64,000 nucleotides of DNA from Verrucomicrobiia bacterium (GCA_036405135.1 DASWYF010000020.1:186001-250000); one strand, 5' to 3'. Positions 28,397-35,707 are shown, counted from the first letter of the stretch. A program made the numbers and translations. Notes: a model not told the origin generated them from the letters alone.

Positions 28397-29623
28397 TCAG
28401 AATTTCAATGTCGCCTGAACGGCCACCAATTGCTCGCCCTGCTGGTGATTGCCTTTTTGATGGCTGTAGCTGTACTGCAGCTTGCCTTGCAGATGACGTG
28501 TTAGGCGGTAGCCGAAGGCAGCATCGATTCGCCACATGTCATTATCCCAATCTTCTTCCCCTCCCGCACCGTTTTGCACCGGATCGAAGAATTGCTGGTT
28601 CCAACGCAGAGCAGCGAAAGCCTTGGTAGTGAGCTTGTATTTGCTTTCGATGAAGTAAGCTGAGGTGTCGGCGTTGCCGACGTTCGGCACGTCGAAGCGG
28701 GAGAAGACGACTTCGCCCCAGAACTGCCAGTCTCGCCACGCATAGGAAACGTCATAGGCGATAGAGGTTTGCGCATAATCATCCAGTGTTTTGCCTGCAG
28801 GCAGAACGGTTTCGGCGACGGGAAGCAGGTAAGGGCCGTAGCTGGCGGAGACACCGAGTTTCCACGCGGCATTCGGCCGCCAGCCCAGGCGGCCGCTCCA
28901 CGTCGGGTGTTCCCAGCCGAGATGACGGGCATCCCAGATGGTGGGGCGGGAGGAGATGGATGCGTTCTTGAAATCGAGGGCGTAATCAAACTGGTGAACG
29001 CGACCAAAGATGGCGGCACCGCTGGTGTAGGCCGGGCCCCACAGAATGGGCAGCCAGGCGGCTTTGGCGTCAAAAGTGTTTTTTCGGGCAAGGAAGCCAG
29101 CGGGTGTGGCTGGCACGGTCTGGTCCGTGATAGTCAGGACATTCTCGTAAGCGACGGGCGCGGTGATGAAAGGGTTGTTCCACGATTCGTGGCGGTTTAC
29201 CCAGTCACCGAAAACGGTGGCGAATTTGCCGACTTGTAAATTCACCCAAGGTTCGTCAAAGGGTTTGTAGCGCAGCAGGTATTCATCGAACCGTGCGGCG
29301 CTATCGGCAGCACCGGGATCGAAACCGCGATCGGCACGGAATTGCACGAAGCTGTAGAACTGCTGGCCGAAATGGGTATCGAGAAAGAGCGAGAGGCGTG
29401 GGTTGAAGTAGTGGTTATCGTCCGGGAAGAGGAGGCCGGGAGGGCGTTGATCGATGTAATAGCCTTCGAGATCAAGCGTGCCGCTGAAATCGGAGCGGAA
29501 CCAGCCGTTCTTGGTCTCAACGTGAAGGGCTTCATCGATCTGATCGAGGATGGCCTGTCCGTGTGAGGCGTTTGCGAAGGCCAGTGACGCGGTGCCGATG
29601 AGGAGTGTTAGCCACGCTTTCAT
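28397..29623 (-). CDS. Outer-membrane beta-barrel (porin-like) protein
   Basis: The 408-residue protein has a signal peptide (TLLIGTASLAFANASHGQ). It continues as alternating amphipathic strands rich in Tyr/Trp and ends in the outer-membrane sorting pattern VAVQATLKF with a terminal phenylalanine. The region YFNPRLSLFLDTHFGQQFYS and FVQFRADRGFD look like barrel strands, and GKFATVFGDWVNRH resembles a conserved segment of porin-like proteins. Substrate is unknown. It is the last gene of the minus-strand cupredoxin-cyclase block, separated from the cyclase by a 271-bp gap holding REP-like repeats. Confidence 0.8.
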   Translation of the reverse strand: MKAWLTLLIGTASLAFANASHGQAILDQIDEALHVETKNGWFRSDFSGTLDLEGYYIDQRPPGLLFPDDNHYFNPRLSLFLDTHFGQQFYSFVQFRADRGFDPGAADSAARFDEYLLRYKPFDEPWVNLQVGKFATVFGDWVNRHESWNNPFITAPVAYENVLTITDQTVPATPAGFLARKNTFDAKAAWLPILWGPAYTSGAAIFGRVHQFDYALDFKNASISSRPTIWDARHLGWEHPTWSGRLGWRPNAAWKLGVSASYGPYLLPVAETVLPAGKTLDDYAQTSIAYDVSYAWRDWQFWGEVVFSRFDVPNVGNADTSAYFIESKYKLTTKAFAALRWNQQFFDPVQNGAGGEEDWDNDMWRIDAAFGYRLTRHLQGKLQYSYSHQKGNHQQGEQLVAVQATLKF

Positions 29624-29715
29624 GAATGCTTAGAACCCGGCATGAACTTTTCTGAAGCAAAATTATTAAAATGAAGTGAACCTACGGTCATGAAGATGAA
29701 TGCAAACTCTTTTGT

Positions 29716-29838
29716 CCTTCTCCCCTCGGAGGGGAGAAGGATTGAGGATGAGGGGTGCCCCTTTCTGTAAAAGCTAATGTTTCCGAGCAAATCCCCGGCA
29801 CCCCTCACCCCGGCCCTCTCCCCTCCAAGGGGCGAGGG
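29716..29838. repeat. Inverted pair of REP-like palindromes (GGGGTGAGGGG family, copies 2 and 3)
   Basis: Copy 2 has CCTTCTCCCC (29716-29725) pairing perfectly with GGGGAGAAGG (29731-29740), followed by GATGAGGGGTGCC. Copy 3, read on the other strand, has GGCACCCCTCACCCCGGCC followed by the same kind of hairpin (29814-29838, one mismatch). The copies face each other with a spacer of about 40 bp. They are related to the element at 4551-4593. The pair sits between the cyclase and porin genes and could modulate readthrough or mRNA stability. Confidence 0.65.
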
Positions 29839-29894
29839 TGCTAACGCCAGTCGTTTCTCGCACCTATTGCGGTTGTTTAAGTGCATGACAGGTT

Positions 29895-31742
29895 CTATTT
29901 CTTCGGTTGCACGTGGGTGACCTTGTAGGCCTTCACCATGTCGCTGAAGCCTTTCAATTTCAGCTCGGGCAATTCTTCGGCATCGATGTGTCCGGAGAGT
30001 TTCGCACGAGTTGTCTCGTCGATCACCACTTCACCGCGTCCAGCAACACTGCACAGGCGGGAAGCGAGGTTCACGCGTTCGCCGAGGACCGTGTAGTTCA
30101 GGCGGTCAGCGGACCCCATGCAACCGGCGACGGCTTCTCCCGTGGCGATGCCGATGCCGACCTCGATCTTGTGAGATGAAATTTTGTTCAGCTTGTTGCG
30201 CTCCTCGATCATACGCATGGCGCAGCGGGTTGCGTTGAAGGCGTCATCGCCGTAGCTCTTGGGGGCGCCGAAGACGGCCATGATGAGATCACCTACGAAC
30301 TTGTCCACCACACCGTTGTGTTCGTAGACGACCTTGGTGAGCGCGGTCATGTGTTCGTTCAGCATCTTGATGACCTCGGCGGGGTCCATGCCTTGCGTGT
30401 GCGCGGTGAAGCCGCGGATGTCGCAGAAGATGACGCTGACTTCGCGTTTCTCGCCACCAAGGGACATCGCACCGTGGACCATCTGATGAGCGACATCTTT
30501 ATCTGCGACCATGTCCAAGACAGCGCGATATTTCTCTTTGAGCGCGAGTTCGGCGGTCATCTCATTGAAGGAATGAGCGAGTTGGCCGACTTCATCATTA
30601 CTGCGTACCGGAACACGTACTTTAAAATCACCATCCTGCACACAGCCGGTGGCGGCGACGAGTTCGCGGATGGGAGCGGAGAAACCGTTGCTGAGGAAGA
30701 CGCTGATGAGCATGGAGCCCATGAGGAGGATGGCGCCGAACATGATAATATTCCGCTGCAAGTCCTGCTGATCGCGGATGGCCTCGGCCATGGAGTAGAT
30801 GCTGACCTGATAGGTGGGCGTGAAATTGGAATCACGGTTCATCAACTGGAAGAAGACCTGATGCGGTTCACCGGCGACATCGACATCGAAGGTGCCTTGC
30901 ATCTTGATGGAGCGCTTTTGCTCCATCATCTCGCGCATGCGGCTGTTGATCTCCACGGCATCGGCAGGAGCGAGGCTCTCGGTGTAAAGCATATTGTCGG
31001 ACCAGATGCCGCTTTTGATGCGGCTGAAATCCGAGAGGCCGTGCTCCGTGTCGTTGATGAAATGAAAGCCCACGATGAGGGAGCCCATGCATTTGCCATC
31101 GATGTCTTCAACGCGTGTGAGGATCACTTCGACCAGGGTCCGTTTCTTCTGGTGTGCTGCCAGCTGGCGGGCACGGGAAGGAAAGCGTGGCTGGTTTGGT
31201 GCGACGTTTTCAACCGAGACATAACCGACCTGTTGAATGGGGCCGGAGGCGAGATTTGTGATGACCTGTTCGAGCTGGGTCTCCAGTTGATCGTATGCGA
31301 GGAACCCGCGCCCGTTAAGAAGCGGCGCTGAAGGCGGCAGCTCTTTGCCTTTTTCGTCCGTATAACGGACAAAGGCCAGTGTCATAGGGCGGCGTTGGCG
31401 GATGGCTTGGGCGGCCAGCTCCCGGACATCGAGTTCATTGAAGGTGGTCTGGTAGAGCCGTTCGCTTTCGCCAGATTCCTTGGTGGCTTCCAAGGCGGCT
31501 TGGACTCGAACGGACTGGGTCAGTTCTGTGCATTTTGCTTTGATGGCGGAGAGACGCGCATCCTGCATGGAGTTGAAGACCGCGATCTGGCCGGTGAAGC
31601 GTTCGGCGAACAGCGTCTGATAAGCCGTCTCCATCCGTTTTTGAGAGACGTAGAGAGTGGTGCCGGTGGCACCGACCACCACGAGCATCATGCCGAGGAG
31701 CAGCTTGAAACGGAAACTGAAGTTCGGCATCAACGACTTCAT
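29895..31742 (-). CDS. Membrane class III adenylate/guanylate cyclase with periplasmic sensor and HAMP
   Basis: The 615-residue protein has transmembrane helix 1 at about 12-32 and a large periplasmic region (33-330) without a family I recognise. TM2 lies at 332-352, a HAMP domain at about 352-405 (APIRELVAATGCVQDGDFKV, SNDEVGQLAHSFNEM) and a class III cyclase domain at about 430-600. Metal-binding Asp441 (VSVIFCDIRGFT) and Asp485 (KFVGDLIMAVFG) are present, with Lys481 favouring ATP. LNYTVLGERVNLASRL matches the dimer/catalytic loop. It would make cAMP in the cytoplasm in response to a periplasmic signal. Its ATG overlaps the end of the cupredoxin gene by 4 bp (ATGA). Confidence 0.92.
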   Translation of the reverse strand: MKSLMPNFSFRFKLLLGMMLVVVGATGTTLYVSQKRMETAYQTLFAERFTGQIAVFNSMQDARLSAIKAKCTELTQSVRVQAALEATKESGESERLYQTTFNELDVRELAAQAIRQRRPMTLAFVRYTDEKGKELPPSAPLLNGRGFLAYDQLETQLEQVITNLASGPIQQVGYVSVENVAPNQPRFPSRARQLAAHQKKRTLVEVILTRVEDIDGKCMGSLIVGFHFINDTEHGLSDFSRIKSGIWSDNMLYTESLAPADAVEINSRMREMMEQKRSIKMQGTFDVDVAGEPHQVFFQLMNRDSNFTPTYQVSIYSMAEAIRDQQDLQRNIIMFGAILLMGSMLISVFLSNGFSAPIRELVAATGCVQDGDFKVRVPVRSNDEVGQLAHSFNEMTAELALKEKYRAVLDMVADKDVAHQMVHGAMSLGGEKREVSVIFCDIRGFTAHTQGMDPAEVIKMLNEHMTALTKVVYEHNGVVDKFVGDLIMAVFGAPKSYGDDAFNATRCAMRMIEERNKLNKISSHKIEVGIGIATGEAVAGCMGSADRLNYTVLGERVNLASRLCSVAGRGEVVIDETTRAKLSGHIDAEELPELKLKGFSDMVKAYKVTHVQPKK

Positions 31743-32434
31743 GGTGCCTTGAATTCTACCTTCAGCGTTTCACCGGCTTTGAGGGTGACGGGCTGGGAGC
31801 GGATGTCTTTGTCATCCACCCAGGCTTTCAGGGTATAGGAGCCGGGGGGCAGGTTCTCAAGTTTGAAGGTGCCTTCCGGGTTGGTGGTGATGAAATGAGG
31901 AGTGTCGAGCACAAGGATGTTCGCGCGCATGTGTTCGTGGATCTCGCAGTAGAGTTTCACGAGACCGGGCTGATCGAACTGGATGGCGGCGGGTTTCTCG
32001 TCTTTCCGGTAGCGGCCCAGGTCGAAGCGCTTGGTCTTGGAGTAGGAAAATACGTTGTGGTAGTCGTCATCAAGGTTTGGGAATTCGACGTAGTGGCCTT
32101 TCTGCACGGGCAGTACGGAATGAGTGAATTGAAACCCTTTTTGCGCCATCTGCACCTGATTGGTCTTCACGGCATTGGTGGAAGCGGTGAACTGGCCTTC
32201 CAGATAGACGATGGCGACGGGGGCAGGCGGAGCGGCGAGCTGGCCGGCCTTTAGGCCGTAGCGGTCGTTGGAAGGGGGCGGGGATTTGGGTTTGGGCAGG
32301 GTGACGGTGCCTTCCACGGTGGCGGTTTGGCTGTAGCCTTTGGTGGCCATCAGAAGCGACAAGGCAAGAATCAGTGCGAGCAGCCCATGCCGATGGACTG
32401 TCTGCACAAAAACATTAGTGCTAAAATACTTCAT
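31739..32434 (-). CDS. Secreted cupredoxin-like protein with C-terminal beta-sandwich
   Basis: The 231-residue protein has a signal peptide (HGLLALILALSLLMATKGYS). A plastocyanin-like region follows: HYVEFPNLDDDYHNVFSYSK provides an N-terminal His, and KLYCEIHEHMRANILVL carries the Cys/His/Met cluster expected for a mononuclear copper site. The C-terminal EGTFKLENLPPGSYTLKAWV is a carboxypeptidase-regulatory-like or SpaA-like beta-sandwich. Similar proteins are labelled methylamine-utilisation-like, but no methylamine dehydrogenase is present. The start at 32434 puts the signal first. It is the first gene of the operon and overlaps the cyclase start by 4 bp. Confidence 0.82.
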   Translation of the reverse strand: MKYFSTNVFVQTVHRHGLLALILALSLLMATKGYSQTATVEGTVTLPKPKSPPPSNDRYGLKAGQLAAPPAPVAIVYLEGQFTASTNAVKTNQVQMAQKGFQFTHSVLPVQKGHYVEFPNLDDDYHNVFSYSKTKRFDLGRYRKDEKPAAIQFDQPGLVKLYCEIHEHMRANILVLDTPHFITTNPEGTFKLENLPPGSYTLKAWVDDKDIRSQPVTLKAGETLKVEFKAP

Positions 32435-32674
32435 GGCCTTTGAACCGGAGAACCTAAACAAAGCGCGGAGTCTGTGCAATGACCGTAAATGGGGAGGGAT
32501 CAAAGGGCGGTGGTGTATCTCAGTGAGAATTGTCACTGCGGAGCGGTCACGGCCTCTTCGCTAGCATTACAGTGTGAGCCATGTCTGGACTGGCGATGAA
32601 GATTGCGCCCAGTTGAAACAAACCGGCTGTGACTTTTCCCCAGATTCTAGCTTGCCGCGATCCAGAAGTAAGGG

Positions 32675-35053
32675 ATGATGGCTTATATGCCGTCCCTGTC
32701 ATTCAATTGCGCGTCTGTTCGCGGTGCGCTGCTATGCCCATTTCTTGGGCTCGTCTTTTCCGCCGGATTGATCCAAGCGGCGGATGAGACAGGGCCGCTC
32801 GCCGGACATTCCATGCATGGAGACGCCTTCAATGAAGGACCACGCCAGAAGGCTTTTCTGATGGGGGAGACAGGGCGCATCCATTTTCCTATCACGACCA
32901 AATCCGCGCAGGCGCAGAAGTTCTTCAACCAGGGCGTCGGGCAGCTTCATGGTTTCTGGTATTTTGAGGCGGAACGTTCTTTCCGCCAGGCGGCGATGCT
33001 GGACCCGGATTGCGCCACGGTTTATTGGGGCATGGCGATGGCGAATGTGAACAATGCCAAGCGTGCGCGTGGTTTTATCGAGAAGGCAGTCTACCTGAAA
33101 TCACTCGTCAGCGCGCGTGAGGGATTGTGGATCGATGCCCTGGCCGAATATCGCAAAGAGGACAAGCGCGACGACAAGCAGCGGCGTAAAGATTATCAGG
33201 CGGCGTTGGAAAAGATCGTGGCCGCTTACCCTGACGACATCGAGGCAAAGGCATTCTGTGCGTTGCAGTATTGGGATAACAACAGCAAAGGCGTGCCCAT
33301 GGGTGACAAGCAGAAGGTGGACGCGATGTTGAAGACGGTGCTGGCCGCTGAGCCGCTGCATCCGGTGCACCATTATCGCATCCATCTCTGGGATGACAAA
33401 GGCGCGACCAATGCCCTGAACTCCGCCGCGTTGAACGGTTACGCGGAACCGGACACCGCTCACATGTGGCACATGAGCGGCCACACTTACACCAAGCTCA
33501 ATCGCTACTCGGATGCCGCGTGGCAGCAGGAGGCCAGTGCCCGCACGGATCATGCCTACATGATGAAGAACCGCGTGATGCCGGATCAGATCCACAATTT
33601 CGCGCACAATAACGAGTGGCTCATCCGCAACTTGAATTTCATCGGCTCGGTGGATCGCGCAGTCGATCTGGCCAAGAACATGATCGAGCTGCCGCGTCAT
33701 CCGAAGTACAACACGTTGGCAAAAGGCAGTGCGAATTACGGTTATCAACGTCTCGCTGAAACGCTCGTCCGCTATGAGATGTGGCCGGAGCTGGTGGCGC
33801 TGGGCCAGACCACTTACCTCGAACCGTTGGATAATAACGATCAGGAAGTTCGGCGTTTGCGCGCACTCGGGACGGCTCACTTCAACTTGAGTGATGTTTC
33901 GGCGGGCAAAGCACAGCTCGCCGCACTGGAGAAGTTGAAGATCAAGATCGAGGCAGACGCGAAAAAGAATCCGAAGAGCGAACCTAAGAAGGACGAGGAG
34001 AGCAAATCCAAGGAGGAAAGCAAACCGCAGGCGGAAGCCGACAAAAAAGAGGAGAAAAACAAGACCGCCGGGAACACGTCTACGAACAGCACAAACCGAT
34101 TGACGGGCGTGAACAATGCCATCGCGGAGTTGCAGGGCTGGGAGGCATTAAAAGCGGGGGATGCGAAGAAAGCGAGAGAGGCGTTCGCGAAGTCGAAGGA
34201 TATCCCGAAGGAACGGCAATCACAGATCGAATGGTTCCTTGGTGATAACAAGAAGGCGGAGCAACTGGCGCTGGATGCGGTAAAAGGCGCGACCAATCAG
34301 GTGCAGCCGCTGGCGCATTACGTGGATATCTCCTATCGCAACGGAAACTACGAGACGGCGTATAAATATTTTTTCCAGTTGCGCGATCTGGCGGCGGAAG
34401 CGGACTTGAACGCGCCGGTGTTTCAGCGGCTGAAAACCGTAGCGTCTGATCTGGATTTTCCGGCGGATTGGCGGCCTGCGTTGAAGCGGGAGAAGGACTT
34501 TGGCAAGCGGCCGAGTTTGGCATCGCTCGGGCCAATTCGCTGGCAGCCTAGTGCCGCGCCTGCATGGTCATTGCCGAATGCGGAGAACCGCCAAATTTCG
34601 CTCAAACAATACAAGGGCAAGCCGGTGATCGTGATCTTTTACCTCGGTCACGGTTGCCCGCATTGCATCCAGCAACTCGCGGCTTTCGCACCGGAGACGG
34701 ATAAGTTCACCAAGCTGGGGATCTCGCTGATCGCGGTGAGCACAGACTCAGTGGATGGCCTCAAAAAGACGGAAGAGAAAGTAGCGGAGAGCGGCGGCTT
34801 CCCGTTCCCGCTAGTCTCGGACAAATCCATGAACATCTTCAAGGCGTATCGTGCGTTTGATGATTTCGAGAACTTGCCGCTGCATGGAACATATCTGATC
34901 GATGGCGATGGATTGGTGCGCTGGCAGGACATCAGCTACGATCCGTTTGTGGATACGAAATTCCTGCTGGGAGAAGCGCAACGGTTACTCGGCAAGGTGC
35001 GTGTGCCGGAACTGGCGGCAACACCGGCGAAGGTCAAAGAGGGCGGGGAGTGA
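32675..35053 (+). CDS. Secreted TPR protein with C-terminal peroxiredoxin-like (AhpC/TSA) domain
   Basis: The 792-residue protein has a signal peptide (GALLCPFLGLVFSAGLIQAA). TPR-like repeats span about 75-440 (FNQGVGQLHGFWYFEAERSF, AMLDPDCATVYWGMAMA) and contain conserved His-rich segments (HPVHHYRIHLWDD, AHMWHMSGHTYTK). A highly charged Lys/Glu linker lies near 425-465, followed by another helical region. Residues about 610-780 are a thioredoxin-fold peroxiredoxin-like domain with CPHC (Cys661, Cys664), LIAVSTDSVDGLKKTEEK and GTYLIDGDGLVRW. A periplasmic thiol or redox role is inferred. It is divergent from the cupredoxin operon, with 240 bp between that probably hold both promoters. Confidence 0.85.
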   Translation: MMAYMPSLSFNCASVRGALLCPFLGLVFSAGLIQAADETGPLAGHSMHGDAFNEGPRQKAFLMGETGRIHFPITTKSAQAQKFFNQGVGQLHGFWYFEAERSFRQAAMLDPDCATVYWGMAMANVNNAKRARGFIEKAVYLKSLVSAREGLWIDALAEYRKEDKRDDKQRRKDYQAALEKIVAAYPDDIEAKAFCALQYWDNNSKGVPMGDKQKVDAMLKTVLAAEPLHPVHHYRIHLWDDKGATNALNSAALNGYAEPDTAHMWHMSGHTYTKLNRYSDAAWQQEASARTDHAYMMKNRVMPDQIHNFAHNNEWLIRNLNFIGSVDRAVDLAKNMIELPRHPKYNTLAKGSANYGYQRLAETLVRYEMWPELVALGQTTYLEPLDNNDQEVRRLRALGTAHFNLSDVSAGKAQLAALEKLKIKIEADAKKNPKSEPKKDEESKSKEESKPQAEADKKEEKNKTAGNTSTNSTNRLTGVNNAIAELQGWEALKAGDAKKAREAFAKSKDIPKERQSQIEWFLGDNKKAEQLALDAVKGATNQVQPLAHYVDISYRNGNYETAYKYFFQLRDLAAEADLNAPVFQRLKTVASDLDFPADWRPALKREKDFGKRPSLASLGPIRWQPSAAPAWSLPNAENRQISLKQYKGKPVIVIFYLGHGCPHCIQQLAAFAPETDKFTKLGISLIAVSTDSVDGLKKTEEKVAESGGFPFPLVSDKSMNIFKAYRAFDDFENLPLHGTYLIDGDGLVRWQDISYDPFVDTKFLLGEAQRLLGKVRVPELAATPAKVKEGGE

Positions 35054-35203
35054 AAAACCTTTGGACCGCGCCTGTGTGCTCAGAGCACCGGGCGCAGCGG
35101 GCAGGGTGGCTATCGCGCAGGTGAAATAATTTCAAGGCACTATGTCAGTCTCACATGCTGCGGCTGATTCTGTCAGGCAGAACACAGCCGCGGTCCACTG
35201 TAG

Positions 35204-35707
35204 TTAGGCTGTTGCCGCTTCTTTTTGTGAAGCCCGGTATTTGCGGGCGTGGTCGAAGAACTCGGCGGCGACCATGTAGCCCACGCAATCTTTCGCGCCG
35301 CAGTTACACGGGTAGTCTTTGTATTCCTCGATATCGAAGCCGTAATTGTAGGTCAGCTCCTCACCGGCCTTGATGTCCCGAACGGCGAGGATCCAGATAT
35401 GCGGGTCATCGTTCTCGGATTCACAGTTGGGGGCGCAACTGTGGTTGATGAAGCGTGCCGGGTTCCACTCGACATTGCCGTTTATGTCCACCGCATCATT
35501 CAGTGTGAAGACGTAGACGTTGCCGTCTTCACATTGTTTCGCGGATTCTGCCTTGCTCATGTGCGGGCCGACGTATTCGATGACCTTCTCGCCTTTGCGG
35601 ATGTCACACGCGGCGAAACAGCCAGTATCATGGATGCCTGATTTGCGCACTTCGACTTTGGAGGCATCGACTTTCGTTCCGGCAGGTTTGGCTTTTTTCT
35701 TGGACAC
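35204..35707 (-). CDS. SET-domain protein (lysine methyltransferase-like) with post-SET zinc motif
   Basis: The 167-residue protein is a compact SET domain. It has GIHDTGCFAACDIRKGEKVI at the start, RFINHSCAPNCESEND (NHSC motif at 88-91, SAM/pseudoknot region), and EELTYNYGFDIEEY with catalytic-type tyrosines 120 and 122. The post-SET cluster CNCGAKDCVGYM has Cys134, Cys136 and Cys141. The family methylates lysines in eukaryotic histones, and bacterial members act on varied proteins or host histones. Its target here is unknown. The basic N-terminus (SKKKAKPAGTK) could contact nucleic acid. It stands alone between the TPR-redoxin gene and an esterase. Confidence 0.9.
   Translation of the reverse strand: MSKKKAKPAGTKVDASKVEVRKSGIHDTGCFAACDIRKGEKVIEYVGPHMSKAESAKQCEDGNVYVFTLNDAVDINGNVEWNPARFINHSCAPNCESENDDPHIWILAVRDIKAGEELTYNYGFDIEEYKDYPCNCGAKDCVGYMVAAEFFDHARKYRASQKEAATA

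Follow-up and report, generated by a model that had tools for sequence, protein, structure and literature searches.

Two described systems come closest to the locus reported here. In LuxP/LuxQ, the Vibrio autoinducer-2 receptor, a membrane transducer is controlled by a soluble protein of the periplasm, and in YfiB/YfiN/YfiR (YfiBNR), a system with an envelope-sensing diguanylate cyclase, outer-membrane, periplasmic and inner-membrane HAMP-enzyme parts are encoded in one operon and tied to envelope and redox state. Within a 64,000-nucleotide stretch of DNA from a Verrucomicrobiia bacterium (the window) we analysed adjacent genes for a cupredoxin (cup), a class III cyclase and a predicted porin, which share traits with both systems: the sensor of the cyclase and the periplasmic domain of LuxQ are alike in fold (Z 12.9), and YfiBNR likewise spans the three layers of the envelope and includes a HAMP enzyme. 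However, LuxP has a sugar-binding-protein fold, whereas the soluble partner here is a blue-copper protein with a cupredoxin fold and not a periplasmic binding protein, the outputs are varied and a beta-barrel is linked to the system. Nor is this partner a YfiR-type regulator: Pfam finds no YfiR or YfiB domain, and unlike YfiBNR the cassette combines a cupredoxin and a barrel with a variable output. LuxP/LuxQ and YfiBNR are precedents for the working mode, but the cassette belongs to neither system. Class III cyclases with a periplasmic sensor and a HAMP domain resemble the present enzyme in domain order and catalytic residues, but here a constant cupredoxin partner and a porin accompany it. 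A full-text search of open-access papers found no description of the pairing of a cupredoxin with a sensor transducer.

Organization of the locus

Open reading frame calls recovered four genes where the first-pass annotation had placed them and on the same strands (Table 1). The cup, cyclase and porin genes follow one another in that order on the minus strand, and a gene for a TPR-peroxiredoxin runs divergently. The 4 bp overlap reported between the cup and cyclase genes is an ATGA, and the 240 bp divergent gap, likewise confirmed, extends from the cup ATG at 32434 to the start of the TPR-peroxiredoxin gene at 32675; the cup reading frame itself reaches a GTG at 32536, but the ATG is preferred.

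Table 1. Features of the locus, with positions counted from the first nucleotide of the window
Feature	Position	Strand	Basis
Secreted cupredoxin with CarboxypepD_reg-like domain	31739..32434	-	66/66 relatives with all four copper ligands
Codon of copper ligand His126 (numbering from ATG 32434)	32057..32059	-	invariant
Codons of Cys163-x2-His166-x2-Met169, amicyanin-like copper loop	31928..31948	-	invariant
Two-TM HAMP class III cyclase, 615 aa, ATGA overlap with cup	29895..31742	-	
Periplasmic double Cache sensor domain (modelled), ~residues 33-330	30753..31646	-	model pLDDT 83; dCache matches Z up to 13.6
HAMP domain, residues 350-399	30546..30695	-	PF00672 (HAMP) 1.1e-13
Class III cyclase catalytic domain, residues 432-606	29925..30449	-	PF00211 (Guanylate_cyc) 5.4e-29; catalytic residues
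Predicted outer-membrane beta-barrel (porin), 408 aa	28397..29623	-	15/16 strong homologues adjoin cup; beta-barrel C-terminus
Gene with CPHC AhpC/TSA domain ('TPR'-peroxiredoxin)	32675-35053	divergent to cup	

The first-pass annotation did not mention that in the source genome 271 bp holding a dispersed repeat separate the porin and cyclase genes, which directly adjoin each other in the same-genus relatives. With up to two mismatches allowed, the genome has 138 copies of the motif CCCTCACCCCGGCCCTCTCCCC, against 0 of the reversed control, which marks the element as a dispersed repeat by which the operon was split here. Within the gap, at 29716-29838, the motif forms part of a 25-nt inverted repeat. 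A promoter and terminator scan of 29600-32800 gave nothing clearly above chance.

Fold and copper site of the cupredoxin

When searched against Pfam, the cup product scored above cutoff for CarboxypepD_reg and only below cutoff for Cupredoxin_1. Its structural model (pLDDT 90) has a clear fold and site, and structure comparison matches it to NirK, plastocyanin and amicyanin domains (Z about 12.5, rmsd 1.6-2.0); the match to amicyanin, Z 12.4 with an rmsd of 1.6 over 85 residues, identifies a beta-sandwich fold. The Cys/His/Met copper site that the first-pass annotation had thought possible turned out to be a complete type 1 (blue) ligand set of His, Cys, His and Met: none of the 66 aligned relatives, the most distant at about 20% identity, departs from H126, C163, H166 or M169, and N120 and D122 are equally invariant. 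From this site the protein is predicted to bind copper. The fold is that of amicyanin and plastocyanin and the ligand spacing, H..C-x2-H-x2-M, that of amicyanin; what sets cup apart from these proteins is its fusion to a CarboxypepD_reg-like domain and a gene that neighbours those of signal transducers instead of a dehydrogenase. Residues 33-230 match domain II of rhamnogalacturonan lyase (Z 11.0, 81 aligned), suggesting a single unit, made up of the N-terminal strands together with the C-terminal domain, that has the cupredoxin domain inserted in it. Proteobacterial members of the family carry the annotation 'methylamine utilization protein'.

The cyclase and its sensor domain

The reading of the second gene as a class III cyclase with a HAMP domain and intact catalytic residues holds both by Pfam (Guanylate_cyc, 101.5 bits against a cutoff of 21.9) and by inspection of the residues: going by the roles established for class III cyclases, the metal-binding Asp441 and Asp485, the base-selecting pair Lys481/Thr551, and Asn558/Arg562 are all in place. 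The product is probably cAMP, that is, the output of an adenylate cyclase, and ten cNMP-binding-domain matches over cutoff in the source genome make a cyclic-nucleotide response plausible.

The 300-residue domain in front of the HAMP domain had been annotated as periplasmic and unrecognised; the former stands, the latter does not. Although searches of Pfam and NCBIfam give the window sensor no family name, an AlphaFold2 model built from 31 sequences (pLDDT 83) combines a long helix at the N-terminus with a pair of PAS-like modules, and structure comparison returns dCache domains throughout, with 8w7p at Z 13.6 over 228 residues, LuxQ (3c38) at Z 12.9, vpHK1S-Z8 (3lid) at Z 12.6 and DctB (3by9) at Z 12.3. 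As modelled, the domain is a double Cache, a fold that is generic among periplasmic sensors, so the special element of the system is the cupredoxin partner. Pfam Cache models do not match the window sensor; among its 31 relatives five match dCache_3 and one dCache_1, weakly, and the transducers of other cassette types (see below) match dCache_3 over cutoff. In window-type sensors Cys71 is conserved in 27 of 31 sequences and His294 in 26.

Conservation of the three genes

Both same-genus genomes, G387 (L042/L140) and G388 (L041/L141), keep the order cup-cyclase-porin, with identities of 68-71% for cup, 54-61% for the sensor, 82-84% for the HAMP and catalytic part and 79-87% for the porin. Among 22 loci read from genome contigs the cyclase gene follows cup in 20, and the porin gene follows the cyclase in 15 of these 20; with L068, L080, L142 and L144, the three genes stand in order at 19 loci, both same-genus genomes included. 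The cupredoxin, the dCache-HAMP class III cyclase and the porin are a conserved cassette.

The porin has no Pfam or NCBIfam match, and a PDB sequence search gave nothing usable. Its C-terminal beta-barrel signature, with F as the final residue, and its strong conservation bear out the annotated outer-membrane porin as a prediction. The single exception among its 16 strong homologues in the phylum sample (E<1e-60, outside the window) is in G013, where the 14 kb read around the porin hold no cup; the porin is nearly private to the cassette.

Exchange of output around a constant cupredoxin

The neighbourhoods of all cup matches were read in a phylum sample of 387 genomes, the sample being mainly of one phylum and its ORFs called mechanically, and 39 cup loci (E about 1e-17 or better, window excluded) were counted. 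At 35 of the 39 a two-TM transducer lies immediately after cup on the same strand. These transducers are 14 second-type cyclases, 2 window-type cyclases, 9 histidine kinases, 8 hybrid kinases and 2 Ser/Thr kinases, ten representatives having been classed by Pfam and the others, which are the majority, by BLAST to these ten. Three of the remaining four loci have a porin without a transducer, and one has neither. Beside the transducer-less cup and porin loci L079 (8750-10930) and L082 (7785-10544) lies a Ser/Thr protein kinase gene on the opposite strand.

On plasmids of Burkholderiales and Novosphingobium cup is followed by a HAMP-GGDEF-EAL protein, at most loci together with DUF3034 and a truncated globin; with these plasmid loci included, the kinds of cytoplasmic output number five. 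In the Caballeronia plasmid cassettes L064, L065, L147 and L149 the truncated globin gene lies between the DUF3034 and cupredoxin genes, and the globin of L065 may be periplasmic, because a signal-peptide-like stretch stands at its start. At two kinase loci the gene of an OmpR-type response regulator precedes cup. The combination of cupredoxin and cyclase to which the first-pass annotation drew attention is therefore a true unit but not a cyclase-specific one, as histidine, hybrid and Ser/Thr kinases and GGDEF-EAL proteins occur in it too.

On the cup tree, several deep forks of which are weakly supported, the output class changes at least seven times, and the histidine-kinase group nests within the window-type clade. 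Sensors of the different output groups align end to end, with 98-99% probability in profile comparison. Seven sampled genomes (G060, G099, G122, G169, G181, G320 and G375) carry a pair of cassettes that differ in their transducers, and every cassette has a separate cup.

An outer-membrane beta-barrel C-terminal signature, which is a call from sequence and not from structure, was found on a neighbour in every cassette type. With window-type cyclases and histidine kinases this is the porin, downstream; with hybrid kinases, proteins of 429-473 aa, upstream; with second-type cyclases, proteins of about 300 aa, upstream; at one Ser/Thr kinase locus, an Alginate_exp barrel; and in the plasmid EAL cassettes, DUF3034. 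Cassette neighbours carry the signature at most loci, against a background of 8 of 475 ORFs, and the barrel families differ between cassettes.

A proposed co-sensor role and its alternatives

Taking into consideration the computed gene order, conservation, copper site, folds and output exchange, we lean towards the view, with confidence a little above even, that the cassette is a modular trans-envelope signalling unit, with the cupredoxin as a periplasmic copper/redox co-sensor dedicated to the dCache transducer; the contact between cup and sensor, the nature of the signal and the direction of regulation are what we infer from them. Such a unit would consist of a secreted type 1 copper protein, a two-TM dCache-HAMP transducer and an outer-membrane beta-barrel. 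Cup would bind copper, its copper occupancy or redox state would track the condition of the envelope, and its docking on the dCache domain would switch the output across the membrane, that output being a class III cyclase, probably adenylate, in the source genome, and a histidine kinase, hybrid kinase, Ser/Thr kinase or c-di-GMP enzyme in relatives. The barrel would probably admit copper or a redox-active compound, or else belong to the response. An action of cup on the sensor domain is the simplest reading, given a cupredoxin that accompanies the sensor half through the exchanges of output and is present separately for every copy of the cassette. Candidate signals are copper level, redox state, NO and oxygen; the putatively secreted globin of the plasmid cassettes and the oxidase-linked outgroup of the cupredoxins tilt the choice towards redox chemistry. 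Against a co-sensor we count the three sampled loci with cup and porin and no transducer, and the adjacency of cup and transducer could be co-regulation only. Distant members of the family are found in respiratory clusters, so electron transfer may be both the ancestral and the present role.

It is rather unlikely, though worth weighing, that the cupredoxin and the barrel are instead effectors: the dCache domain would bind a small molecule, as dCache domains mostly do (amino-acid chemoreceptors are among the structure matches), and the transducer would regulate an envelope electron-transfer or uptake module with cup as the electron carrier. Some loci consist of cup and porin only, and outgroup cupredoxins adjoin oxidase, CtaA, SCO and cytochrome c genes; in weaker members of the cup family (E above 1e-16) the site reads CDxHxxM, and the adjoining genes are CoxA-like, CtaA or others but no transducers, the identity of CoxA being read from sequence. 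However, cup has stayed with the sensor through the at least seven exchanges of output, cyclase, Ser/Thr kinase and c-di-GMP outputs would have to act back on the cup gene by a different route in each case, and oxidase, dehydrogenase or cytochrome genes do not recur among the cassette neighbours. A sister group of cup with the CDxHxxM site lies beside CoxA-like and CtaA genes at L153, L154, L157 and L107, the last in the source genome itself.

The lack of recurrent copper pump, oxidase and chaperone genes in the neighbourhoods speaks against a cassette for copper homeostasis, in which the barrel would pass copper, the cupredoxin would buffer or deliver it and the transducer would report copper status. 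A copper protein does adjoin a barrel in these loci, but the barrel family varies between cassettes, which argues against one fixed cargo, and we consider this reading improbable. A metal-free role for the cupredoxin domain, as a module that binds, for example, a sugar or polymer, is suggested by the resemblance of the cup C-terminal domain to fn3_3 of polysaccharide lyases, and is scarcely credible with the four copper ligands invariant in 66 sequences.

The co-sensor reading may extend further. We put forward tentatively, and with less than even confidence, a general class of trans-envelope copper/redox receptors, in which a blue-copper co-receptor, linked to a barrel, would serve dCache transducers of every major output type, namely cyclic AMP, c-di-GMP, and His-Asp and Ser/Thr phosphorylation. 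If this is true, cells read the copper or redox state of their surroundings through a blue-copper co-receptor. Cupredoxins are taught as electron carriers; one that is kept with a sensor while the enzyme is repeatedly exchanged would be a signalling component, and a co-sensor role would give a function to many genes labelled 'methylamine utilization protein'. The same cup beside different signalling enzymes suggests a reusable copper/redox antenna, and cup and the sensor, being two soluble domains, would make an easy test system for the entry of copper or redox state into cAMP and c-di-GMP signalling.

The divergent peroxiredoxin gene

The divergent protein has the CPHC peroxiredoxin-like domain ascribed to it (AhpC/TSA, Pfam 2.1e-27); its 'TPR' region was called by eye, and Pfam recognises none there at E<=0.1. 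The first-pass annotation had counted this gene as the fourth member of the system and its redox output, but in related genomes it is the cup, cyclase and porin genes that recur together. In G387 and G388 the TPR-peroxiredoxin gene lies on another contig than the cup triad, beside a SET gene, and the sequence read upstream of the triads (about 3.7 and 8 kb) does not contain it; for G387, neither the 834 bp upstream of the TPR-peroxiredoxin gene holds cup nor the roughly 8 kb upstream of cup the TPR-peroxiredoxin gene. The gene is present in 11 of the 387 phylum genomes, and both in those that also have cup (G190, G217 and G234) and in the same-order genomes G390, G391 and G405 the two are on different contigs. 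Since they are on separate contigs wherever both occur, the TPR-peroxiredoxin gene is a chance neighbour of the cassette in the source genome. A four-gene unit with the TPR-peroxiredoxin as functional output, to which the divergent adjacency in the source genome had pointed, deserves almost no credence with the genes unlinked in all eight of these genomes, and linkage in the same-genus and wider genomes rules the protein out as a cassette member. The gene set first proposed was one gene too wide, and the generality of the pairing had been missed. Across 32675-35707, the TPR-like AhpC/TSA gene adjoins a SET-domain gene, and the two stay paired in both same-genus genomes (L118 and L119).
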